Shown here in pieces: positions 16,731-41,328 of a stretch of 64,000 nt of DNA. The notes under the pieces are model-generated. The model was given only the letters and a program-made list of their open reading frames with translations, was not told the DNA's origin and did not search any database. Numbering within the stretch: position 1 is the stretch's first letter; the number at the start of each line of letters is the position of its first letter. This DNA is from Asanoa sp. WMMD1127 (GTDB lineage Bacteria > Actinomycetota > Actinomycetes > Mycobacteriales > Micromonosporaceae): positions 3,472,001-3,536,000 of the forward strand of contig NZ_JARUBP010000001.1 of the NCBI RefSeq assembly GCF_029626225.1, read 5' to 3'. A program made the position numbers and the translations under genes.

Positions 16731-16746
16731 AAGCAACCGGTTAAGT
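16731..16746. promoter_or_regulatory. Candidate LacI-family operator O1 (upstream site)
   Basis: AAGCAACCGGTTAAGT carries the palindromic core AACCGGTT and the right half of ACTTAACCGGTTAAGT. It lies 106 bp centre-to-centre upstream of O2, near ten helical turns. It probably binds the LacI-type protein encoded at 22.5-23.5 kb. Confidence 0.6.
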
Positions 16747-16804
16747 GGGTGCGCTCCCATTCGGGTGCCTGCGAGGACTTGGGGCAGGCATGGGAGCGCT
16801 CTTG
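16746..16804. promoter_or_regulatory. Two CebR/CelR-type boxes
   Basis: TGGGTGCGCTCCCA (16746-16759, one mismatch) and TGGGAGCGCTCTTG (16791-16804, three mismatches) match the operator TGGGAGCGCTCCCA known for CebR/CelR repressors of cellulose use in actinobacteria. The second overlaps the -35 box. They suggest a second LacI-family regulator, not encoded here, also controls the transporter operon. Confidence 0.65.
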
Positions 16805-16852
16805 ACGAAGGCATATTCGCGTGTTTCAGTGTGTCTACTTATCCGGTTAAGT
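16802..16852 (+). promoter_or_regulatory. Promoter and operator O2 of the sugar ABC transporter operon
   Basis: TTGACG (16802-16807), a 17-bp spacer and TTCAGT (16825-16830) form a likely promoter. Seven bases after it lies ACTTATCCGGTTAAGT (16837-16852), an almost perfect palindrome. The same 12-base left part, ACTTATCCGGTT, recurs 7 bp after the -10 of the GH2 gene promoter. Binding there would block early transcription. Confidence 0.7.
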
Positions 16853-16902
16853 GATCTACCTAACATCGCACGTCGAAGCTCCCTGCTCGGAGGAGGACGG
16901 CA

Positions 16903-18645
16903 ATGCATAGGCGGTCGAGGTGGCTGGTGGCGGGAGCGCTCGCGCTCACCCTCGGAGTGGCCGGGTGCACCGGCGGAGACGGCGGCGGCGCGGCGCCGGG
17001 CGCCGGCGGACTGCCCGGCCCGGGCGGCGCCGGCGGGGCCTACCCGCGCAACGAGACGCTCTACACCAGCGGCACCCAGTGGGGACCGCCCAACAGCTGG
17101 AACCCGATCATCCCCGGCTACGCGATGGGCACGGTCGGGCTCGCCTACGAGACGTTGTTCCTGTTCGACCCCGAGAAGACCGAGCTCACCCCGTGGCTCG
17201 CGGAGAAGGGCGAGTGGGCCGACAAGACCTACACGCTGACCCTGCGCGAGGGCGTCACCTGGAGCGACGGCAAGCCGCTGACCGCTGACGACGTGAAATA
17301 CACGGCCGAGCTGGGCAAAATCAAAGCCGTCCCGTACAGCAATCTCTGGACCTGGCTCTCCGCCGTCGACGTGGTCGACCCGCGCACGGTGCGGTTCACC
17401 TTCACCGACCCGCGGATCCAGGAGTGGGAGAACTGGCTCTTCGAGAACGCCATCGTCCCCAAGCACGTCTGGGAGACGCGCTCCGAGGCCGACATCACCA
17501 CGACCGCCAACGAGAAACCGATCGGCACGGGGCCCTACGAGTACCTGACGCACGACCAGGACCGCATGGTGTGGAAGAAGAAGGCCGACTGGTGGGCGAC
17601 TGAAGCGCTTAACCTCGCGGTCCAGCCGACCTACATCGTCGACATCGTCAACTCCAGCAACGAGGTCGCGCTCGGCCTGCTGCTGCAGGGCAACATGGAC
17701 CTGTCCAACAACTTCCTGCCGGGCATCGCCAACCTGGTCAAGGGCGACTTCAAGGTGAAGACGTACTACCCCGACCCGCCCTACATGCTCTCCGCCAACA
17801 CGGCGATGCTGATTCCCAACACCACCAAGGCGCCGATGAACGACGTCGCGTTCCGGCGGGCGCTGGCCAGCGCGATCGACACGAAGAAGATCGTCGAAGG
17901 GGTGTACGGCAACATCGTCCGCGCGGCCAACCCGACCGGTCTGCTGCCCGTCTGGGACCAGTTCGTCGACCAGGCCGTGGTCAGCCAGAACGGGTTCGGC
18001 TTCGACCCGGGCAAGGCGAAGAAGACGCTGGCCGACGCCGGCTACCGCGACGCCAACGGCGACGGGTTCGTCGAGGGCAAGGACGGTAAACCGGTCAAGC
18101 TGTCGCTGATCGTGCCGGCCGGGTGGACCGACTGGATGGAGGCGGCCCGGGTGATCAGCGCCGGTGCGCAGGCGGCCGGCATCAACGTGGTGGCCGAGTT
18201 CCCCGACGCCGGCGCGCTCGACGACGCCCGTACCGCCGGGAAGTTCGACCTCGTCCTCAACAACTGGGCCGGCCTGTCCAACACGCCGTGGCACTTCTAC
18301 AACTACATCTTCCAGCTGCCGGTCCAGCAGCAGCAGTTCAACGCCAACTTCGCCCGCTACGAGAACAAGGCCGCGTGGGAGCTGGTGCAGAAGCTCGCGC
18401 GCACGCCGCAGGACGCTCCGGAGTTCAAGACCACCATGAGCGAGCTGGAGCGCATCCAGCTGACCGAGTTGCCGATGATTCCGTTGTGGTACAACGGTTT
18501 GTGGGCGCAGTTCAACACCACACATTGGACCAACTGGCCGTCTGCGGCCGCTGACGCGCCCAAGGCTCTGCCGACCACGTGGAACAACCTCTGGGAGATG
18601 GGCAGCATCAAGATGCTGACCCAGCTGAAGCCGGTCGCCGGATGA
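16903..18645 (+). CDS. Family-5 substrate-binding lipoprotein of an ABC transporter
   Basis: 580 residues of the SBP_bac_5 family (oligopeptide, nickel and, in some members, oligosaccharide binding). The signal peptide ends in the lipobox GVAGC, so it is a lipoprotein. Family features are LREGVTWSDGKPLTADDVKYT, GTGPYEY and FRRALASAID. GGAGGAGG lies about 7 nt before the ATG. First gene of a five-gene transporter operon whose operators and neighbours (LacI repressor, beta-mannosidase) point to a beta-linked oligosaccharide as ligand rather than peptides. That substrate is inferred; family-5 proteins for beta-mannosides and cello-oligosaccharides are known in Thermotoga. Confidence 0.88.
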   Translation: MHRRSRWLVAGALALTLGVAGCTGGDGGGAAPGAGGLPGPGGAGGAYPRNETLYTSGTQWGPPNSWNPIIPGYAMGTVGLAYETLFLFDPEKTELTPWLAEKGEWADKTYTLTLREGVTWSDGKPLTADDVKYTAELGKIKAVPYSNLWTWLSAVDVVDPRTVRFTFTDPRIQEWENWLFENAIVPKHVWETRSEADITTTANEKPIGTGPYEYLTHDQDRMVWKKKADWWATEALNLAVQPTYIVDIVNSSNEVALGLLLQGNMDLSNNFLPGIANLVKGDFKVKTYYPDPPYMLSANTAMLIPNTTKAPMNDVAFRRALASAIDTKKIVEGVYGNIVRAANPTGLLPVWDQFVDQAVVSQNGFGFDPGKAKKTLADAGYRDANGDGFVEGKDGKPVKLSLIVPAGWTDWMEAARVISAGAQAAGINVVAEFPDAGALDDARTAGKFDLVLNNWAGLSNTPWHFYNYIFQLPVQQQQFNANFARYENKAAWELVQKLARTPQDAPEFKTTMSELERIQLTELPMIPLWYNGLWAQFNTTHWTNWPSAAADAPKALPTTWNNLWEMGSIKMLTQLKPVAG

Positions 18646-19634
18646 GGCGGTACTTCGGCCGCAAACTCGCGATCTACGTGCTGACCTTCGTGGTCGCGGT
18701 GACGCTCAACTGGATCATCCCCCGGTTCATGCCGGGGGACCCGGTCCTGCGGATGCTGACGCGCACGTCGGTCTCCAACCCCGAGGCGATCGCGCCGATG
18801 CGGGCCTATTACGAGAACGTCTTCGGCCTCGACGTTCCATTGTGGAAGCAGTACGTGAACTACTGGCTCGAGCTGTTCCAGGGCAACCTCGGTGTGAGCG
18901 TGTGGCTGTTCCCGGCGCCGGTCGCGGACGTCATCGTCCGGGCGGTGCCCTACACGCTCGCGCTGCTGCTGCCGTCGATCCTGCTGAGCTGGTGGGCCGG
19001 CAACAAGGTGGGCGCCCTCGCGGCCCGCCGGCGCTGGCTCGACAACACCGCCCTGCCCGTCTCGTACGCGCTGACCGCCACGCCCTACATGTGGCTCGGC
19101 ATCCTGCTGGCCTGGAGCCTCGGGATCGTCGCCGGCGTGTTCCCGGTGGCCGGGGGCTACAGCTTCGAGCTGCGACCGGCGTGGTCGTGGACGTTCGCCG
19201 CCAGCCTGGCCCAGCACTGGTTCCTGCCGTTCCTGTCGCTGTTCCTGGTGGCCTTCGGCGGCTGGGCCATCGGCATGCGCAACCTGATCATCTACGAGCT
19301 GGAAGCCGACTACGCCAGCTACCTGGCCGCGCTCGGGGCGCCGCGCCGGCTGATCCGCCGCTACGCGTTCCGCAACGCGCTGCTCCCGCAGTTAACCGGT
19401 TTGGCGCTGCAACTGGGTGTGCTGGTGGCCGGCGCGTTGGTGACCGAGATCGTGTTCGCGTACCCGGGTCTCGGTCACCTGATCCTGCAGGCCATCCAGA
19501 ACCAGGACTTCTTCCTGTTGCAGGGCGCGTTCCTGTTCATCGTGATCGGCGTGCTCGTGGCCAACTTCGTGATCGACGTCGTCTACGTCCTGGTGGACCC
19601 GCGCACCCGGACCGGCATGCAGGGGGCGACATGA
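18642..19634 (+). CDS. ABC transporter permease (DppB/OppB type)
   Basis: 330 residues with about six membrane segments. The N-terminus has the DppB-like pattern (IIPRFMPGDPVLRMLT), and the EAA loop reads ADYASYLAALGAPRRLIRRY. It forms the membrane channel with the next permease. The ATG overlaps the stop of the binding-protein gene (ATGA), and its own stop overlaps the next start in the same way, so the operon is translationally coupled. Confidence 0.93.
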   Translation: MRRYFGRKLAIYVLTFVVAVTLNWIIPRFMPGDPVLRMLTRTSVSNPEAIAPMRAYYENVFGLDVPLWKQYVNYWLELFQGNLGVSVWLFPAPVADVIVRAVPYTLALLLPSILLSWWAGNKVGALAARRRWLDNTALPVSYALTATPYMWLGILLAWSLGIVAGVFPVAGGYSFELRPAWSWTFAASLAQHWFLPFLSLFLVAFGGWAIGMRNLIIYELEADYASYLAALGAPRRLIRRYAFRNALLPQLTGLALQLGVLVAGALVTEIVFAYPGLGHLILQAIQNQDFFLLQGAFLFIVIGVLVANFVIDVVYVLVDPRTRTGMQGAT

Positions 19635-20530
19635 CGGACCCCGTTTCGGCGACATTGCTGGCTGAACCGGTTGAGCCACCGGTCGGTCGCCGCCGTGAGA
19701 CGCTGCACTTCGCGCTGCGAAACAAGAAAGTGGTCGGCGGATCGGCGGTGATCCTGGCGTTCCTCGTCCTCGGTCTGGTTGCCCCCTTGTTCACGGACCA
19801 CGGCCCCAACGAGTACGTGGGTCCGCCGGCCGCCCCGCCCTCGGCCGACTACTGGTTCGGCACCACCACGTTCGGGCAGGACGTGTTCCTGCAGTTCGCC
19901 AACGGGATCCGGTCGACGTTCCTGGTCGGCGTGCTCGGCGGCGGGCTCGCGGGGCTGGTCGGCATGACGGTCGGTTTCGTCGCCGGCTACCGCGGCGGGC
20001 TGGTCGACGAGCTGCTCAACATGCTGACCAACATCGTCCTCGTCCTACCGGCGCTGGCGGTCCTGATCATCCTGCACGCGTACGTCGGCATCACCTCCGT
20101 GCCGATGCAGGCCCTGTTCATCGGCCTGTTCTCCTGGCCCTGGGTGGCACGGGCCGTCCGGGCGCAGACGTTCTCGATCAGGTCCCGCGAGTTCGTCGAC
20201 CTGGCCCGGTTAAGCGGGATGCGCCCGCTGGCAATCATTCGCCGCGAGATCGCGCCCAACATGAGCTCCTACCTGTTCATGACGTTCATCCTGCTGTTCG
20301 GCGGGGCGGTGCTGATGGCGGCGACGCTCGACTTCATCGGCCTGGGTCCGACGAACGTGGTGTCGCTCGGGCTGATGATGAACAGCGCGGTGCATTGGAG
20401 CGCCCTGCATCTGGGGCTGTGGTGGTGGTTCGTGCCGCCCGGCGCGGCGGTCACCGCGATCGTCGGCGCGCTCTACGTGATGAACGTGGGCCTCGACGAG
20501 GTCTTCAACCCCAAGCTGCGGGAGATGTGA
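19631..20530 (+). CDS. ABC transporter permease (DppC/OppC type)
   Basis: 299 residues with an N-terminal hydrophobic segment followed by the DppC-like WFGTTTFGQDVFLQFANGIR and about five more segments. The EAA loop REFVDLARLSGMRPLAIIRR is typical. It overlaps the upstream permease by four bases and the next ATPase by four (GTGA). AACCGGTT at 19665-19672 lies inside its 5' end, one of several intragenic copies of the putative LacI core in this operon. Confidence 0.93.
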   Translation: MTDPVSATLLAEPVEPPVGRRRETLHFALRNKKVVGGSAVILAFLVLGLVAPLFTDHGPNEYVGPPAAPPSADYWFGTTTFGQDVFLQFANGIRSTFLVGVLGGGLAGLVGMTVGFVAGYRGGLVDELLNMLTNIVLVLPALAVLIILHAYVGITSVPMQALFIGLFSWPWVARAVRAQTFSIRSREFVDLARLSGMRPLAIIRREIAPNMSSYLFMTFILLFGGAVLMAATLDFIGLGPTNVVSLGLMMNSAVHWSALHLGLWWWFVPPGAAVTAIVGALYVMNVGLDEVFNPKLREM

Positions 20531-21486
20531 CCGTGGTGCTGAGGGTCGACGACCTGCGGGTCCACTACCGAACGCTCCGCGGCGACGTGCGCGCGCTGGA
20601 CGGAGTCTCGTTCACGGTCGCCGACGGCGAGATCATGGGCGTCGTCGGCGAGTCAGGGTGTGGAAAGTCGACCCTGGGCAAGAGCCTGGTCCGCCTCGAC
20701 AACCGGATGAAGCACGTCGGCGGGAAGGTCACGGTCGACGACGAGGCGCTACCCATCGACGACGACCAGGCGATGAACCGGTTCCGTTTCAAGACGGTCT
20801 CGGTCATCCCGCAATACGCGATGAGCGCCCTCAACCCGACGGTACGCATCCGCCGCCTGGTGTCGGACCTGCTGACCGCGCACGGCATCGACTTCACGGC
20901 GGCGCGCCCGGAACTGCTCCGCCGGCTCGACCTCGTCGGGCTGCCGGAGCGCGTCCTCGACAACTACCCGATCGAACTGTCCGGCGGCATGAAACAACGC
21001 GTGGTCCTGGTCCTGTCGACCCTGCGCGACCCGGCGGTCCTGGTGGCCGACGAGGTGACCTCGGCCCTGGACGTCTCGACCCAACGCGCGGTCGCGGAGA
21101 CGCTGGTCCAGTTCCGCGACCGCGGCTACGTGCGCAGCATGCTGGTCGTCACCCACGACATCTCGCTGGTCTACCAGATCGCCGACACGATCATGGTCAT
21201 GTACGCGGGCCGCCTGGCCGAGAAGGCACCCTCCGATGTGGTCGTAACGGAACCGCTTCACCCCTACACCCAGCTCTTGATCGGCGCGCTCCCCGAAGTC
21301 GGCGCCCGCTTCACGGACCGGAGGCTGACCGGTATACCGGGCCGACCACCGGGGCTGCGCAACCCGCCGCAGGGCTGCCGCTTCCGGGCCCGGTGCCCGC
21401 TCGCCTTCGACAAGTGCGCCGAACAACCACCCTTCGTCGAGGTAGCGAAGAACCACCAGGTCGCCTGCTGGAAGGCCGGCTCGTGA
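20527..21486 (+). CDS. ABC transporter ATPase (DppD/OppD type)
   Basis: 319 residues, cytoplasmic ATPase. Walker A is GESGCGKST, the signature LSGGMKQR, Walker B VLVADEVTSALD, and the H-loop VTHD. The C-terminal region GIPGRPPGLRNPPQGCRFRARC plus CPLAFDKC is the oligopeptide/dipeptide ATPase extension with its cysteine cluster. The GTG overlaps the upstream stop. Unlike the first four genes, it is separated from the next ATPase gene by 243 bp. Confidence 0.94.
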   Translation: MTVVLRVDDLRVHYRTLRGDVRALDGVSFTVADGEIMGVVGESGCGKSTLGKSLVRLDNRMKHVGGKVTVDDEALPIDDDQAMNRFRFKTVSVIPQYAMSALNPTVRIRRLVSDLLTAHGIDFTAARPELLRRLDLVGLPERVLDNYPIELSGGMKQRVVLVLSTLRDPAVLVADEVTSALDVSTQRAVAETLVQFRDRGYVRSMLVVTHDISLVYQIADTIMVMYAGRLAEKAPSDVVVTEPLHPYTQLLIGALPEVGARFTDRRLTGIPGRPPGLRNPPQGCRFRARCPLAFDKCAEQPPFVEVAKNHQVACWKAGS

Positions 21487-21729
21487 CGCGCCGGCGGGAT
21501 GGTCGGCAGCCGCCCCGGCTCCCGGCACATCCTGGCCGCGGCGACGTCGCCACGCGCGGAGTCCCGCGGACGGCCGACCGCTGGTCGGTCGGCGGGACAC
21601 CGGCGGTCTGCGAACCGCGGCGCGCGCGCCGAGAGCAGGGCGGTTCGCTGTTGAGCAGGCCAGCGGAAGACGGGAGGTCGAGCGGCGGCCGCCGACCGGC
21701 AAGAGATCCGCGACGGAGGGTGGGCTTCG
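21487..21729 (+). other. 243-bp gap inside the transporter operon
   Basis: No credible gene is seen. The sequence is GC-rich and contains CCGACC/GGTCGG repeats around 21580 that can pair. The other junctions of the operon overlap by 4 bases, so this gap stands out. It may hold a processing or termination hairpin that lowers expression of the second ATPase, or the remains of a lost segment. GGAGGG precedes the next start. Confidence 0.4.
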
Positions 21730-22524
21730 GTGTTGCGGCTTGACGGGGTTTGGAAGAACTACCGGCTCGGCGCGTTCGGGAGTCGCGAGCTGACCGCCGT
21801 CCGGGATGTCTCTCTGGAGGTGAGGCCCGGCGAGGTCGTGTCGCTGATCGGGGAGAGTGGCAGCGGCAAGACCACGATCGGGCGGATGGTTCTGGGGCTC
21901 GCGGCGCCTACGCGGGGTGAGATCACGTTCGACGGTGTCGCGGTGAACCGGTTGCGTGGTCGGGCCCTGCGCGGCTACCACCGCCAGGTGCAGGGCGTCT
22001 TCCAGGACCCGTTCAGCACCTTCAACCCCGTCTTCAAGGCCGACCGCGTCTTCACCCTCGTGAAGGACGGCTTCTTCCCGTCGACCACCGCGGCGCGGTG
22101 GCGGGAGCGGGTCGAGGCCGCCCTCGAAGGTGTGCGGCTCGAGCCCGCCGACGTCCTGCACAAATACCCGCATCAGCTCAGCGGCGGCCAGCTGCAACGA
22201 ATGCTGATCGCGCGGGCGCTCCTGCTGGACATCCGTCTCCTCGTCGCCGACGAGATCATCAGCATGCTCGACGCCTCGACGCGGATCGACGTGTTGAACC
22301 TGCTCGGTGATCTCAAGGCCGGCGGGCTCGGGGTTCTCTTCGTCACCCACGATCTGGCGCTCGGCACCTATATCAGCGACCGCACCGTCATCCTGCGCGC
22401 CGGCGAGGTGGTCGAGGCCGGGCCGACGGAACAGGTCTTCGACCGGCCGCGGCACGAATACACGCGCAATCTTCTGGCCGCCGTGCCGCATTTGCACACG
22501 CGATGGAATGAACCGGTTAAGTAG
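21730..22524 (+). CDS. ABC transporter ATPase (DppF/OppF type)
   Basis: 264 residues. Walker A GESGSGKTT, Q-loop VFQDPFSTFNP, signature LSGGQLQRMLIARALL, Walker B LLVADEIISMLD, H-loop VTHD. It lacks the C-terminal cysteine-containing extension of its partner, as is common for short DppF-like subunits. The GTG start is preceded by GGAGGG. Its last bases, AACCGGTTAAG then TAG, overlap the 3' end of the convergent LacI gene by 8 bp. Confidence 0.92.
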   Translation: MLRLDGVWKNYRLGAFGSRELTAVRDVSLEVRPGEVVSLIGESGSGKTTIGRMVLGLAAPTRGEITFDGVAVNRLRGRALRGYHRQVQGVFQDPFSTFNPVFKADRVFTLVKDGFFPSTTAARWRERVEAALEGVRLEPADVLHKYPHQLSGGQLQRMLIARALLLDIRLLVADEIISMLDASTRIDVLNLLGDLKAGGLGVLFVTHDLALGTYISDRTVILRAGEVVEAGPTEQVFDRPRHEYTRNLLAAVPHLHTRWNEPVK

Positions 22525-23536
22525 CGCGCGGCGGGGCCGTGCTCGCGCGGGGTGCCAGTTTCGCCGTCGTGTCCTGGACCGAGCCGACCGGTTGCCCGGC
22601 GATGGCGGACAGCAGTTGGCGGGCGGCCAGGGCGCCGTATGCCGGGATGTCGCGGGTCAGCGCCGTCAGCGCCGGATGGACCAGGCGGCACAGCGGCGAG
22701 TCGTCGAAGGCCACGATGGACAGATCGCCGGGCACGGTCAGGCCCATCTCCTGCGCGACACCGAGCCCGGCGATCGCCATCACGTCGTTGTCGTAGATCA
22801 CCGCCGTGGGCCGGTCGTCGGCGCTCAGCAGGCGGCGGGTGGCCCGCGCGCCCTCCTCGCCGGAGTAGTCGGTGCCCACCGTCAGCGAGCGCGTCACGCC
22901 CAGCCGCTTGCAGGCGCCGTGGAAGGCGCCGGCCCGCACGCGCGTGTGCCACAGGTCCGACAACCCCGCGACCCGGGCGATCCGGCGATGCCCGAGCGCG
23001 GCCAGGTACTCAACCGTTTCCACCAGCGCGATCGCGTCGTCGTTCCAGACGTGGGGCACGTCGCCGACGCCTTCCGGGCCGCCGACCACCACCGCCGGCA
23101 GGCGCAGCGACGTCACCACCGGGATCCGCGGATCGCTCACCCGCAGGTCGCAGATCAGCACACCGTCGACCCGGCGCTCGCCCCACCAGCGGCGGTAGAC
23201 GGCGACCTCCGCGTCGGCGTCGGCCACGATCTGCAGCATCAGCGCGTACGAGCGGGCGGACAGCTCGGCCTCCACGCCGCTGATGAGCTCCATGTAGAAC
23301 GGCTCGAAGCCCAGCACCTTGGCCGGGCGGCGCAGGGCCAGGCCGATCGTGTCGGCGGCCGCGCCGGACAGCGCGCGGGCGGCGCTGTGCGGGTTCCAGC
23401 CGATCTCCTCGGCGATGGCCAGGATCCGCCGCCGGGTGGTCTCGGAGACGCCGCGGTGGCCGTTGAGCGCGTAGGACACCGCGCCCTTGGAGACGCCCGC
23501 CCGCTCGGCGATGTCAGCGATCGTGGGCCGTTTCAA
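22517..23536 (-). CDS. LacI-family transcriptional repressor
   Basis: 339 residues. The N-terminal helix-turn-helix and hinge read TIADIAERAGVSKGAVSYAL, then GVSETTRRRILAIAEEIGWN; the periplasmic-binding-like sensor domain follows (DNDVMAIAG, PGDLSIVAFDDSPL). The TTG at 23536 is chosen because GGGAGG lies 5 nt before it and the HTH begins right after; an upstream ATG at 23584 lacks such a site. It is convergent with the transporter operon and divergent from the GH2 gene, so it probably represses both through ACTTA[A/T]CCGGTT[A/C]AG sites. The inducer is likely a short beta-mannoside or related sugar (inference). Confidence 0.93.
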   Translation of the reverse strand: MKRPTIADIAERAGVSKGAVSYALNGHRGVSETTRRRILAIAEEIGWNPHSAARALSGAAADTIGLALRRPAKVLGFEPFYMELISGVEAELSARSYALMLQIVADADAEVAVYRRWWGERRVDGVLICDLRVSDPRIPVVTSLRLPAVVVGGPEGVGDVPHVWNDDAIALVETVEYLAALGHRRIARVAGLSDLWHTRVRAGAFHGACKRLGVTRSLTVGTDYSGEEGARATRRLLSADDRPTAVIYDNDVMAIAGLGVAQEMGLTVPGDLSIVAFDDSPLCRLVHPALTALTRDIPAYGALAARQLLSAIAGQPVGSVQDTTAKLAPRASTAPPRAT

Positions 23537-23597
23537 CCCGCCTCCCAAGGAGAATGCCCGCCGAAGGGCAGACCTCACGGGCAAGCTACCACCGCCG

Positions 23598-23650
23598 TTG
23601 ACAGCATTCCCGCGGCCATCGTACCGTCAATTCCACTTATCCGGTTCAGC
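23598..23650 (+). promoter_or_regulatory. Promoter and LacI-type operator of the GH2 gene
   Basis: TTGACA (23598-23603), an 18-bp spacer and TACCGT (23622-23627) make a good vegetative-type promoter. ACTTATCCGGTTCAGC (23635-23650) follows at 7 bp. Its first 12 bases are identical to operator O2 of the transporter operon, at nearly the same place relative to the -10. This gives the two transcription units a common switch. Confidence 0.75.
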
Positions 23651-23678: not shown

Positions 23679-26084
23679 ATGCGGAAACCGCTTCATTCCG
23701 GCTGGGCACTGACGCCCGCGAGCGCCGACGGCGTGCCCGATCGGATAACAACGATCCCCGCGACCGTGCCGGGGTGCGTGCACACCGATCTGCTCGCCGC
23801 CGGCCTGATCCCCGACCCGTTCGTCGACGACAACGAGACGGCGCTGGCCTGGATCGGCGACGCCGCATGGCGATACACCACCACGTTCGACTGGCACGGG
23901 CCCGGCGGCCACGACCGGGTCGACCTCGTCTGCGAGGGCCTCGACACCGTCGCCGACCTCGAGCTCAACGGCGTCCCGCTGGGCAGCACGGCCAACATGC
24001 ACCGGTCCTACCGCTTCGACGTGCGCGACGGCCTCCGTCCCGGCGCCAACGACCTGCGGATCACCTTCCATCCCGCCCGGGAGTACGCCCGGCACTGGCA
24101 GGAGCGGCTCGGCGACCGCCCGAACGCGTACCCGGAGCCGTTCAACTTCATCCGCAAGATGGCCTGCAACTTCGGCTGGGACTGGGGTCCAACCCTGGTC
24201 ACCGCCGGCATCTGGCAACCGATCGGCCTCGACCTCTGGCACACCGCCCGCCTGGCCCAGGTCCGTCCATTGACGACGGTCAAGGACCACACCGGCCGCG
24301 TCGAGGTCCACGCCGATATCGAGCGAGCGAGCGAAGGCCCCCTCACGCTCACCGCCGCCATAGCCGGCCACCACGCCAGCACCACCGTCGACAACAGCAC
24401 CGCGACGGTCACGGTCGAGGTGGCCGACCCACGCCGCTGGTGGCCCCGCGGCTACGGCGACCCGGACCGCTACGACCTCGAGGTCACCCTCACCGACGCC
24501 GCCGGCACGAAACTCGACACCTGGCACCGGAAGGTCGGCTTCCGCGACGTCCGTCTCGACACGACCCCGGACGAGCACGGCACCCCGTTCACGGTGACGG
24601 TCAACGACCAACCGATCTTCGTCCGCGGCGTCAACTGGATCCCCGACGACCCGTTCCCGAGCCGCATCACCAAGCAGCGCCTCGCGAAGCGGCTCGACCA
24701 GGCCACCGAGGCCAACGTCAACCTCCTCCGCGTCTGGGGCGGCGGCCGCTACGAGTCCGACCATTTCTACGACCTCGCCGACGAGCGCGGCCTGATGGTC
24801 ACCCAGGACTTCCTCTTCGCCTGCGCCGCCTATCCCGAGGAGGAGCCGTTCGCCACCGAGGTCGCGGCCGAGGCGGCCGAACAGGTGGCCAGGCTCGCCA
24901 GCCACCCCAGCCTCCTCTGGTGGTGCGGCAACAACGAGAACATCTGGGGCCACGCGGACTGGGGCTGGCAGGAGCGCCTGCACGACAGGACGTGGGGCGC
25001 CGGCTACTACCACCGCGTCCTGCCCGAGATCGTCGAGCGACTGGACCCGACCCGCCCCTACTGGCCGGGCAGCCCGTGGTCCGGCCGCGCCGACCGCCAC
25101 CCCAACGACCCGGCCCACGGCACCATGCACATCTGGGACGTGTGGAACCAACTCGACTACCACCACTACCGCGACCACGAGCCGCGCTTCGTCGCCGAGT
25201 TCGGCTATCAGGCCCCACCGACCTGGGCCACCGTCAAGGAAAGCATCACCGACGACCCACTGGCCCCCGACTCACCCGGCATGCGCCATCACCAGAAGGC
25301 CGCCGACGGCGACAAGAAGCTCCACCGTGGACTGGCGCAGCACTTCGGAGACCCGGCCACCACCGACGACTGGCACTACCTTACCCAGGTCATCCAGGCC
25401 CGCGCGATCCAGGAGGCCGTCGAGCACTTCCGCGCCCTCCGCCCGTACTGCATGGGCGCCATCGTCTGGCAGCTCAACGACTGCTGGCCGGTCACCTCGT
25501 GGAGCGCGATCGACGGCGCCGGCCGCCGCAAACCGATGTGGTACGCCCTCCGCCGCGCCTACGCCGACCGCCTACTCACCCTGGACGACCACCGCGCCGT
25601 GCTCGTCAACGAAACAGCGGAACCATGGCGCACGACCCTGACCGTCACGAGATCCACACTGGACGGCAAGCGCCTGGCCGTCACCGACGCGACGATCGAG
25701 GTGGCGCCCCACAGTAAAGCCAGCCACGACCTGGCCGACGACCTCAGCCACGCGAGCGACCCGACCGGCGAGGTCCTCTGGGCGGCGGCCGACGGTCAAC
25801 GAGCCTGGTGGTTCTACGCCGAGGACAAGGACATCGCCTACCCCAAGGCGGAGTACGACGCGACCGTCCACCACCGACAGGGCGAGACGAAACTGGCGGT
25901 CACGGCCAGAACCTTCCTCCGCGACCTCACGGTCTTCCCGGACCGGCTGAACCCCGACGCCGAGGCCGACGACGCCCTCCGCACCCTCTTCCCCGGCGAG
26001 ACGGTCACGTTCACGATCCGCGGAGCGACAGCAGCGGAGGACGGGCTCACCACCAAGCCCGTCCTCCGCTGCGTCAACGACTGA
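23679..26084 (+). CDS. GH2 family beta-mannosidase
   Basis: 801 residues without a signal peptide, so it acts in the cytoplasm on imported sugars. It has the GH2 order: jelly-roll domain (WRYTTTFDW), Ig-like region, and TIM barrel. NFGWDWGPTLVTAGIW is characteristic of the mannosidase branch. The acid/base Glu lies in WWCGNNENIWG and the nucleophile Glu in FVAEFGYQAPPTW. The length fits beta-mannosidases (about 800-850). It lies beside the transporter and repressor and shares the operator, so it probably cleaves mannose from imported beta-mannosides. Confidence 0.92.
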   Translation: MRKPLHSGWALTPASADGVPDRITTIPATVPGCVHTDLLAAGLIPDPFVDDNETALAWIGDAAWRYTTTFDWHGPGGHDRVDLVCEGLDTVADLELNGVPLGSTANMHRSYRFDVRDGLRPGANDLRITFHPAREYARHWQERLGDRPNAYPEPFNFIRKMACNFGWDWGPTLVTAGIWQPIGLDLWHTARLAQVRPLTTVKDHTGRVEVHADIERASEGPLTLTAAIAGHHASTTVDNSTATVTVEVADPRRWWPRGYGDPDRYDLEVTLTDAAGTKLDTWHRKVGFRDVRLDTTPDEHGTPFTVTVNDQPIFVRGVNWIPDDPFPSRITKQRLAKRLDQATEANVNLLRVWGGGRYESDHFYDLADERGLMVTQDFLFACAAYPEEEPFATEVAAEAAEQVARLASHPSLLWWCGNNENIWGHADWGWQERLHDRTWGAGYYHRVLPEIVERLDPTRPYWPGSPWSGRADRHPNDPAHGTMHIWDVWNQLDYHHYRDHEPRFVAEFGYQAPPTWATVKESITDDPLAPDSPGMRHHQKAADGDKKLHRGLAQHFGDPATTDDWHYLTQVIQARAIQEAVEHFRALRPYCMGAIVWQLNDCWPVTSWSAIDGAGRRKPMWYALRRAYADRLLTLDDHRAVLVNETAEPWRTTLTVTRSTLDGKRLAVTDATIEVAPHSKASHDLADDLSHASDPTGEVLWAAADGQRAWWFYAEDKDIAYPKAEYDATVHHRQGETKLAVTARTFLRDLTVFPDRLNPDAEADDALRTLFPGETVTFTIRGATAAEDGLTTKPVLRCVND

Positions 26085-27932
26085 CTACTCGGGAACCTTC
26101 CGGTACGCCCCGTCGCTGGCCGACGTCGCCATCGACGCGTACGCCCGCAAAGCCGCCGACACCGGCCGCTCCCGATCCACCGGCGTGTAGGGCTTGTCGC
26201 GCTTCTCCTGCGCCACCCGCCGCGCGTCGAGCACCTCGTCAGGCACGTTCAGCGTCAACGACCGCGCCGGGATGTCGATGACGATCTCGTCGCCCTCCTC
26301 GACCAGCGCGATCAGCCCGCCACCGGCCGCCTCGGGCGAGACGTGCCCGATCGACAGGCCGGACGTACCGCCGGAGAACCGCCCGTCCGTGATCAGCGCG
26401 CACGCCTTGCCGAGCCCGCGCCCCTTGAGGAACGAGGTCGGGTAGAGCATCTCCTGCATGCCCGGCCCACCCCGCGGCCCCTCGTAGCGGATGACCACGA
26501 CGTCGCCCGGCTGGATCTCCTTGGCCAGGATCCCGTCGACGGCGGCCTCCTGCGACTCGAACACCTTGGCCGGCCCGCTGAACCGCCACAGCTCCTCGTC
26601 GACGCCGGCCGTCTTCACGACCGCGCCCTCGGGCGCCAGGTTGCCGTGCAGGATCGCCAGACCACCATCCGCGGTGTACGCGTGCGCGAAGTCCCTGATG
26701 CACCCGTCAGCGGCGTCGATGTCCAACGTGGACCACCGGTTCGCCGTGGAGAACGGCTCGGTCGTGCGCACCCCGCCCGGCGCCGCGTGGAACAGCTCCA
26801 CCGCGGCCGGCGACGGCGACCCGCCCCGGATGTCCCACGCGGCGAGCCACGACGACAGGTCGGGGGAGTGCACCGAGTGGACGGACGTGTCGAGCGCGCC
26901 GCCCCGGGCCAGCTCGCCCAGGATCGCCGGGATGCCGCCGGCCCGGTGCACGTCCTCCATGTGGTATTTCTGCGTGTTGGGCGCCACCTTGGCCAGGCAC
27001 GGCACCCGGCGCGAGATCGCGTCGATGTCGGTCACGCCGAAGTCGAGCTCCGCCTCCCGCGCCGCCGCCAGCAGGTGCAGCACGGTGTTGGTCGACCCGC
27101 CCATCGCCACGTCGAGCGCGACCGCGTTCTCGAACGCCGGCCGGGTCGCGATGTTGCGCGGCAGCACCGACTCGTCGTCGCCGTCGTAGTAGCGCCGCGC
27201 CAGGTCGACCACGGTGCGCCCGGCGTCGAGGAACAGCTGCCGCCGGGCCGCGTGCGTCGCCAGCGTCGAGCCGTTGCCCGGCAGCGACAGGCCGATCGCC
27301 TCGGTCAGGCAGTTCATCGAGTTGGCGGTGAACATGCCGGAGCAGGACCCGCAGGTCGGGCAGGCCGACTTCTCGATCTCGCTCAGCTCGGCATCGGTCA
27401 CCTCGTCGTTGGACGCCGCGATCATCGCGTCGATCAGGTCGAGCTTGTTGCGCACGACGCCGTCGACCGCGACGGTCTTGCCAGCCTCCATCGGCCCGCC
27501 GGAGACGAACACCGTCGGGATGTTGAGCCGGAGCGCCGCGAGCAGCATGCCGGGCGTGATCTTGTCGCAGTTGGAGATGCAGACCAGGGCGTCGGCGCAG
27601 TGCGCGTTGACCATGTACTCCACCGCGTCGGCGATCAGCTCCCGGCTCGGCAGCGAATAGAGCATGCCGCCGTGGCCCATCGCGATGCCGTCGTCGACCG
27701 CGATCGTGTTGAACTCGCGGCCCACACCGCCGGCCTCGGTGACGGCCTCGGAGACCAACGCGCCCATGTTGCGGAGGTGCACATGCCCGGGTACGAACTG
27801 CGTGAAGCTGTTGGCGATGGCGACGATCGGCTTGCCGAAGTCGTCGTCGGTCATACCGGTGGCCCGCCAGAGGGCTCGGGCGCCGGCCATCGTCCGTCCG
27901 TGTGTCGAGGTTCTGGAACGCAGCTCAGGCAT
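26085..27932 (-). CDS. ilvD: Dihydroxyacid dehydratase
   Basis: 615 residues; dehydrates 2,3-dihydroxy acids to the 2-oxoacid precursors of valine and isoleucine. Fe-S cysteines lie in CDKITPGM and [11 protein letters not shown]; the C-terminal [20 protein letters not shown] is typical. GAGACT lies 7 nt before the ATG, suggesting a leaderless mRNA. Its stop directly abuts the stop of the convergent GH2 gene. It is separate from ilvBNC, with a GGDEF-EAL gene between them. Confidence 0.97.
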
Positions 27933-40878: not shown

Positions 40879-41328
40879 GTGTCCGACGAGGTCACCACCC
40901 CTCCGCCCGCCGCACCGGTCGCTGCCCCGCCCGCCACCGGCCCGCAGCCCGGCGCGCCGGCCCCTGAACCGGTCAAGTCCGGCAAGGGCAAGCAGATCCG
41001 GAACCTCATCCTGCGCATCGTCGCGGTACCGGCGGTCCTGATCGTGGGCGGCATCATCTGGGCGTTCGCCAGCGGCGACCCCACCATGGCCAAGTCCGGC
41101 GACTGCCTCATCGGCCAGCAGGCAGACGACATCAAAATCGTCGGCTGCGACGACGCGACCGCCGAATGGAAGGTCGTGGGCAAGGTCGAGGGCGTCAGCG
41201 AAGCGGACTACAACGCGACGCAGGACGACACCAGCTGCACCTCCTACACGACCGCAACGGCATCGTTCTGGTCAGGCAAGAAGGGCGGCAGCGGCGACGT
41301 GCTCTGCCTGGAGCCGCTCAAGAAGTGA
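40879..41328 (+). CDS. Membrane-anchored LppU/SCO3897-like protein (copy 1)
   Basis: 149 residues. A Pro/Ala-rich cytoplasmic N-terminus (~35 residues) leads to a single membrane segment (about 42-65) and a ~80-residue external domain with four cysteines: GDCLIG, VGCDD, SCTSY and DVLCLEP. This resembles the LppU/SCO3897 family of secreted actinobacterial proteins, of unknown role. The GTG start has GAAAGGAA before it. A paralogue with the same promoter layout lies 880 bp downstream. Confidence 0.8.
   Translation: MSDEVTTPPPAAPVAAPPATGPQPGAPAPEPVKSGKGKQIRNLILRIVAVPAVLIVGGIIWAFASGDPTMAKSGDCLIGQQADDIKIVGCDDATAEWKVVGKVEGVSEADYNATQDDTSCTSYTTATASFWSGKKGGSGDVLCLEPLKK

Follow-up and report, generated by a model that had tools for sequence, protein, structure and literature searches.

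What is carried by an Opp-type transporter whose genes lie next to a beta-mannosidase gene, and which regulator controls its synthesis? The question is raised by a 64,000-nucleotide stretch from the genome of the soil actinobacterium Asanoa sp. WMMD1127 (family Micromonosporaceae; contig NZ_JARUBP010000001.1, positions 3,472,001 to 3,536,000; hereafter the window), in which a family-5 solute-binding protein (SBP), its permeases and ATPases, a LacI-family repressor and a glycoside hydrolase family 2 (GH2) enzyme are encoded in one cluster. The cluster very probably belongs to a regulon for the utilisation of beta-mannan, perhaps also of glucomannan, under the local LacI-family repressor plus CebR. 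The genes and the operators, as well as the conservation and placement of the latter, are established from sequence, and the features are listed here in window coordinates.

16731-16746: operator O1, AAGCAACCGGTTAAGT, distal, upstream of the transporter operon; kept in 5/5 Asanoa loci (window included)
16746-16759: CebR-type box TGGGTGCGCTCCCA, 13/14 to TGGGAGCGCTCCCA, with one base in common with O1
16791-16804: weaker CebR-like box TGGGAGCGCTCTTG, 3 mismatches, overlapping the transporter -35; kept in 4/5 Asanoa loci, degraded in L026
16802-16830, plus strand: candidate promoter of the transporter operon, TTGACG-17-TTCAGT; read by eye, a conserved block in the Asanoa comparison
16837-16852: operator O2, ACTTATCCGGTTAAGT, where transcription of the transporter operon is expected to start; pattern match and Asanoa comparison
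16903-18645, plus strand: family-5 solute-binding lipoprotein (SBP_bac_5), predicted to be of the mannoside-binding kind; domain and PDB matches, lipobox by eye
18642-19634, plus strand: Opp-type permease B; domain search
19631-20530, plus strand: Opp-type permease C; domain search
20533-21486, plus strand: Opp-type ATPase 1 with oligo_HPY C-terminus; domain search
21730-22524, plus strand: Opp-type ATPase 2; domain search
22507-22522: operator O3, AATGAACCGGTTAAGT, within the 3' end of the second ATPase gene, where it meets the 3' end of lacI; pattern match and Asanoa comparison
22517-23536, minus strand: LacI-family repressor (ManR-like) with TTG start; domain search and relatives
23598-23627, plus strand: candidate GH2 promoter, TTGACA-18-TACCGT; read by eye, kept in 5/5 Asanoa loci
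23635-23650: operator O4, ACTTATCCGGTTCAGC, between lacI and the GH2 gene; pattern match and conservation
23679-26084, plus strand: GH2 beta-mannosidase; domains, PDB matches, putative acid/base E420 and nucleophile E507

Shared operators and their conservation

The operator was searched in the symmetric form ACTTAACCGGTTAAGT with up to three mismatches, which gave five matches in the window and none in 100 dinucleotide shuffles, and 12 operator-like places in the whole genome versus one for the reversed control pattern. Four of these 12 places fall into the cluster (16731, 16837, 22507 and 23635). Both 16-mers that the first-pass annotation had pointed out, ACTTATCCGGTTAAGT at 16837 and ACTTATCCGGTTCAGC at 23635, are real and beyond chance (0/100 shuffles). 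The palindromic site that it had deduced from them stands as far as the symmetric form exceeds chance, but the commonest conserved operator, ACTTA[TC]CCGGTTCAG[CT], is an imperfect palindrome. A perfect palindrome was rejected as the main consensus: among 50 matches to ACTTA[TC]CCGGTT[CA]AG[CT] on the plus strand of 80 named loci, 38 read ACTTATCCGGTTCAGC. These named loci are the best 80 of 433 SBP relatives obtained by scanning species genomes with an SBP alignment.

The LacI gene had been placed correctly between the transporter operon and the GH2 unit, and candidate promoters precede both units. At the GH2 gene, the -35 TTGACA (23598-23603) is followed by an 18-nt spacer and a -10-like TACCGT, and O4 starts 7 nt past the latter, as had been stated for both promoters; at the transporter operon, with TTGACG at 16802-16807 and a 17-nt spacer, the distance from the -10-like TTCAGT to O2 is 6 nt instead. 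Because a sigma-70 scan gave no promoter over threshold, the candidate hexamers rest on conservation in five Asanoa loci. There, the -35, the -10 and O4 are kept in the gap between lacI and the GH2 gene. The stretch before the SBP gene is largely variable in its middle but contains conserved islands, namely O1 fused to the CebR-type box, the -35 with the second CebR-like box (4/5 loci), the -10 region and O2; the stretch adjoining glyA, the serine hydroxymethyltransferase gene upstream of the cluster on the minus strand, is likewise conserved. The starts of O1 and O2 are 106 bp apart, about ten helical turns, a spacing that would suit looping. O3 covers the last codons of ATPase 2, where the same 17 bases, ATGAACCGGTTAAGTAG, occur in 5/5 Asanoa loci, and includes a GTT codon, which is rare in the cluster (8 of the 223 valine codons in its six plus-strand genes). 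Since the five loci are close relatives, the conservation of O3 is only suggestive.

Across the named loci, the 700 bp preceding the SBP match contain the operator in 65/80 and the CebR box (up to one mismatch) in 45/80, with both present in 37/80. The controls for operator and CebR box gave 0 and 0 with reversed patterns, 0 and 0 inside the gene and shuffle means of 0.02 and 0.00. A LacI relative and a GH2 relative above the score limits were each present in the fetched stretch of 60/80 loci (both in 49/80), and 9/80 loci have a GH5 mannanase relative. Starting from the regulator, a LacI orthologue (E <=1e-110) was detected in 300 of the 354 genomes of the family and the SBP (E <=1e-150) in 33. 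In all 30 best-scoring LacI loci, the operator (up to three mismatches) occurs in the 500 bp preceding lacI, the shuffled expectation for one flank of these loci being 0.02 loci. At the sequence level, a palindromic operator is thus conserved at target and regulator promoters across genomes. The motif is present around orthologous clusters, and the earlier proposal of one LacI-type operator common to the transporter operon and the beta-mannosidase gene is borne out.

Predicted import and hydrolysis, and an unlinked mannanase gene

The SBP carries an SBP_bac_5 domain (E 4.5e-64). Its nearest solved relatives are 1vr5, 4pft and 4pfu (with 4pfw and 5hm4), which match residues 47-578 at E values of 3.7e-145 to 1.8e-141 (about 488, 487 and 476 bits). 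The name 'Mannoside ABC transport system, sugar-binding protein' is borne only by the 476-bit one (4pfu, 4pfw, 5hm4; E 1.8e-141); all three are Thermotoga mannoside-binding proteins. Chitin-oligosaccharide or 'peptide' binders match at 4.8e-47, and the peptide binders AppA (1xoc) and DppA (1dpp) at 1e-17 and 1e-15. Domain and full-length structure match suggest that the SBP belongs to the mannoside-binding SBP_bac_5 kind, with a mannoside as its predicted ligand. The earlier view of this family-5 binder as an oddity of a peptide class does not hold, since its nearest solved relatives include a named mannoside binder. A side feature of the transporter operon is the 243-bp gap between the two ATPase genes (window 21487-21729), which measures about 390-600 bp in the Asanoa loci L026, L028 and L029; in many named loci from other families the two genes nearly abut.

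The downstream enzyme has the GH2 domains and long matches to beta-mannosidases (E 4e-151, up to 508 bits), and no signal peptide was seen in it by eye. By alignment numbering, E420 of the CGNNE stretch and E507 of the AEFG stretch both align with beta-mannosidase Glu residues and are presumably catalytic; at the first position the 6bye chain has Glu and the 5n6u chain another residue. The LacI protein, whose start codon was picked through alignment with relatives, contains both the N-terminal LacI helix-turn-helix and the sugar-binding domain. The SBP and GH2 matches and the shared operator argue for the beta-mannoside regulon that had been proposed from the first reading. That account was incomplete, as it lacked the operators at 16731-16746 and 22507-22522, the CebR-type box and an operator at a distant mannanase gene.

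This mannanase is one of three GH5 (PF00150) matches in the genome and is encoded at 4053522-4054898, about 0.56 Mb from the cluster. The protein reads as secreted and resembles cellulose-binding-type chains in its C-terminal part; in the PDB it matches best the beta-mannanase 1bqc (E 8e-135) of Thermobifida fusca. An operator, ACTTAACCGGTTGACC, at 4053400-4053415 ends 106 bp before the GH5 start codon; its right half forms a -35, TTGACC, with TAATGT 18 nt further on. A GH26 mannanase was discarded as a candidate, only two partial matches of 22-27 bits being found in the genome. GH5 relatives were found in 28 of 61 genomes searched, and 30 loci were kept, some of them paralogues or only 49-60% alike. 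In 16/30 loci, among them those of 5/6 Asanoa genomes, the 350 bp preceding the GH5 match contain the operator (up to three mismatches), distances being measured from the match start, in about half of the loci not a start codon; the reversed pattern and the in-gene control both gave 0/30. In the sixth Asanoa genome (G003) the operator at the mannanase gene has decayed and reads CCGACCGGTTGACC. This genome contains no close LacI orthologue (best 40-43% identity) and no SBP match at the limit used, and its GH2 matches are only 51-54% identical; in this single case, regulator loss and site decay would fit each other. In a Rhizocola locus (L083), a mannanase relative at 19868 is also preceded by an operator-like site, at 19661.

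Repressor binding, the effector, the transported ligand and looping between operators are predicted from this arrangement. In the proposed mechanism, manno-oligosaccharides would be released by the secreted GH5 mannanase encoded elsewhere in the genome, mannobiose and short oligomers would be imported by the family-5 lipoprotein with its Opp-type ABC transporter, and the cytoplasmic GH2 beta-mannosidase would produce mannose from the imported oligomers. The LacI-family (ManR-like) protein would occupy operators of the ACTTA[TC]CCGGTTCAG[CT] type and block transcription until a mannoside is bound. At O2 and O4 it would act at the start sites of the transporter and GH2 promoters, and on the mannanase operator it would cover the -35 of the GH5 promoter. 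The repressor would be released by mannobiose, the likely effector, entering at a low basal rate, and CebR would provide a second lock on the transporter promoter.

Several observations weigh against this reading. No operator was found upstream in 15/80 SBP loci (L086, L087, L088, L091, L092, L100, L106, L111, L119, L120, L126, L128, L131, L135 and L148; for L135 the upstream stretch is only 177 bp) and in 14/30 GH5 loci, and in 20/80 named loci the fetched stretch contains no LacI orthologue above the score limit. In 20 larger LacI loci chosen over several genera (L188-L207), an operator-like site (up to four mismatches, CCGG core) is present in 19; in the remaining one, L200, neither an operator-like site nor a GH2 gene was found. 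AACCGGTT cores may also serve other LacI paralogues: a two-mismatch site stands beside another LacI gene. Of the three nearest solved SBPs, only one is named for mannosides, 4pft being recorded as an ABC substrate-binding protein and 1vr5 as an 'oligopeptide' binder, and 'oligopeptide' is also the name of the next relative (2.6e-65), presumably a cellobiose binder; the ligand could therefore be broader.

CebR and the rival explanations

As given in the respective sources, TGGGAGCGCTCCCA is the CebR site (PMC4898821), and the known ligands of a Streptomyces CebR (SsCebR) are cellobiose and mannobiose (PMC12772271). With up to one mismatch, TGGGAGCGCTCCCA occurs at 19 places in the genome versus one for the control. 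Nine proteins at 8/15 genome box loci were typed: a LacI protein, an LPMO10, a GH1, three GH9 proteins and three sugar SBPs. A candidate CebR gene is the LacI gene (G000:C1 near 1760165) that stands next to a sugar SBP and a perfect box. At the transporter promoter, the CebR-type box is present in 5/5 Asanoa loci, with one mismatch in four and two in L027. Because the three-mismatch count in the window alone is no more than chance, the argument for this box draws on its place, on the single mismatch and on its occurrence in all five loci. Such a box suggests that CebR, by sensing cellobiose or mannobiose, would add its own control of uptake. Neither the regions before the 30 GH5 matches (up to two mismatches) nor the five Asanoa lacI-GH2 gaps (up to three) were found to contain a CebR box, so that the second lock seems confined to uptake.

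The same box invites a different explanation, in which cellobiose or mixed gluco-manno-oligosaccharides are the main ligand and CebR, not the local LacI protein, is the chief regulator of uptake. It would account for the box beside the operator in every Asanoa locus, for its occurrence in 45/80 named loci and for the perfect boxes lacking an operator upstream in L086, L087, L091, L092, L100 and L120. We consider it unlikely, given that the LacI operator is present in 65/80 loci, that the box is missing from the GH5 matches and lacI-GH2 gaps searched and that the hydrolase is a beta-mannosidase by sequence match.

It is also conceivable, albeit quite improbable, that the palindromes are operators of another LacI paralogue and that the neighbouring LacI protein regulates something else. 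The genome contains 35 LacI matches at E up to 1e-20, and a AACCGGTT-core site stands beside at least one other LacI gene (G000:C1:3239848). This two-mismatch site (L002 1501-1516) reads ACGTAACCGGTTACGT, which is fully symmetric. It precedes by about 100 bp the match to a different LacI paralogue (34% identical), which it perhaps serves as operator; the AACCGGTT core may be common to several paralogues, with differences in the flanking bases. Yet the site is found upstream of the present LacI orthologue in 30/30 loci although the adjoining genes differ, and the one Asanoa genome without this LacI has also lost the mannanase-promoter site.

A peptide or nickel/metallophore transporter merely neighbouring the mannosidase is highly improbable and was rejected: the best NCBIfam matches of SBP and permeases are to Opp/Nik families, several close PDB relatives of the SBP are named 'oligopeptide' and the T. 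fusca counterparts are called peptide ABC transport elements (PMC4880297), but all these NCBIfam matches lie far below the cut-offs, the nearest solved relatives of the SBP include the named mannoside binder (1.8e-141, versus 1e-17 to 1e-15 for AppA and DppA), GH2 and GH5 mannanase relatives accompany the SBP in 60/80 and 9/80 loci, and the operator is common to transporter and mannosidase.

A possible transporter exchange, and related systems

Within the preferred reading of a mannan regulon under the local repressor plus CebR, a more specific proposal can be made, to which we give an even chance. One LacI repressor and its operator would have been kept across the Micromonosporaceae while the transporter under their control was exchanged for an unrelated one (Opp-type with its own ATPases versus CUT1-type), the Asanoa transporter would stand under a two-lock gate of repressor and CebR, and O3, within the last codons of ATPase 2, would be an auxiliary looping site. 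The exchange is suggested by the 20 larger LacI loci. Ten operator-adjoining proteins from eight of them were typed; the neighbour of the operator is an SBP_bac_1/8 protein in 7/8 and, in both loci where this was run, a binding-protein-dependent (BPD) permease, a combination that we infer to be a CUT1-type importer. The remaining 12 comprise two Opp-type loci (L190, L203), five in which the GH2 gene directly follows the operator (L191, L192, L201, L205, L206), four with an untyped gap (L188, L194, L197, L198) and L200 with neither. An Opp-type transporter accompanies this repressor in Asanoa, Rhizocola and Allorhizocola. The neighbours typed thus indicate that transporters of different classes lie beside one and the same repressor and operator.

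A transporter tree of 83 LacI rows, 64 labelled Opp and 19 other, needs four changes, three of them forced by well-supported branches. One change is false because L203 is labelled 'other' although its ATPases are Opp-type (the contig ends before the SBP gene), and the direction and number of the swaps are tentative because the named rows came from a search with the Opp-type SBP. In L199, the eighth of the typed loci, the same LacI and operator lie beside a different family-5 transporter, whose SBP_bac_5 protein is only 29% identical. A further observation concerns glyA, which adjoins lacI in 9/20 larger family loci and the transporter promoter in Asanoa; an insertion or rearrangement at the glyA place may be the origin of the cluster in Asanoa.

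The module is not rare: 80 named loci contain a close SBP relative. It is also less novel than the first-pass annotation, which knew of no description of it in this group of bacteria, had supposed: a similar gene set is in print for T. fusca, where, according to the source, man5A, cel5A, 'peptide ABC' genes, regulator genes and the gene for the beta-mannosidase ManB form a cluster and ManB is intracellular and cleaves mannobiose (PMC4880297). Its locus (L131) resembles that of Asanoa in the SBP (58%), GH2 (56%) and LacI (54%) proteins, in related permeases and ATPases and in a GH5 mannanase relative in the same stretch. It differs in that lacI lies upstream in the same orientation, that the mannanase gene is linked and not about 0.56 Mb away, and that its sites are mostly of the AAACCGGTTTA type, none of them within three mismatches in the 700 bp before the SBP gene. 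In Streptomyces, SsManR (SirexAA-E) is reportedly mannose/mannobiose-responsive and is said to act on alpha-mannosidase genes via a 12-bp palindrome. In Thermotoga maritima, the transporters CelEFGKL, MtpEFGKL and GloEFGKL with CelR, ManR and GloR are assigned to cellobiose, mannosides and gluco-oligosaccharides, and the glo locus is described with distinct operators for the local LacI regulator and the distal CelR (PMC3750489). The Asanoa transporter promoter resembles this locus in its two-lock design; Thermotoga ManR, by contrast, is a ROK protein with mannose as effector, whereas Asanoa combines a local LacI protein with a distal CebR. The Thermotoga maritima transporters are Opp-type. The listed regulator classes include a LacI-type one for mannose and mannosides (PMC4052901), and GlyR2 of Clostridium thermocellum, a different lineage, is a LacI-type, mannobiose-responsive repressor of a mannanase gene, for which one confirmed target is named (PMC10766802).

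The type of system is therefore already familiar, with the T. fusca gene set in print and related Thermotoga transporters carrying mannosides. In the open-access literature, with subscription papers mostly outside, no description was found of the operator, its wide conservation or the exchange of the transporter. What appears to be new is the operator, its wide conservation and the occurrence of repressor and operator beside a putative CUT1-type transporter in 7/8 other Micromonosporaceae loci. An annotated 'peptide transporter' becomes a testable mannan-uptake system in many actinomycetes, with operator and regulator named. The locus also offers a case where a repressor and its site seem to persist after the transporter under their control has been replaced, and a two-lock promoter at which crosstalk between cellulose and mannan sensing is open to direct test.

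Some minor observations concern the surroundings. The fifth window match to the operator, CCTGAACCGGTCAAGT at 40963-40978, is operator-like with three mismatches, and three nearby open reading frames have no Pfam match; further operator-like sites in the genome lie at 1150555, 1159721, 2037378, 2510698 and 7939073. The GH2 gene is adjoined by a gene for an IlvD/Edd-type dehydratase (window 26085-27932), likewise in several relatives. Between 28113 and 34153 follow a GGDEF/EAL protein, a thiamine-diphosphate enzyme and a ketol-acid reductoisomerase, so that the mannan genes have a branched-chain amino-acid region as their neighbour.

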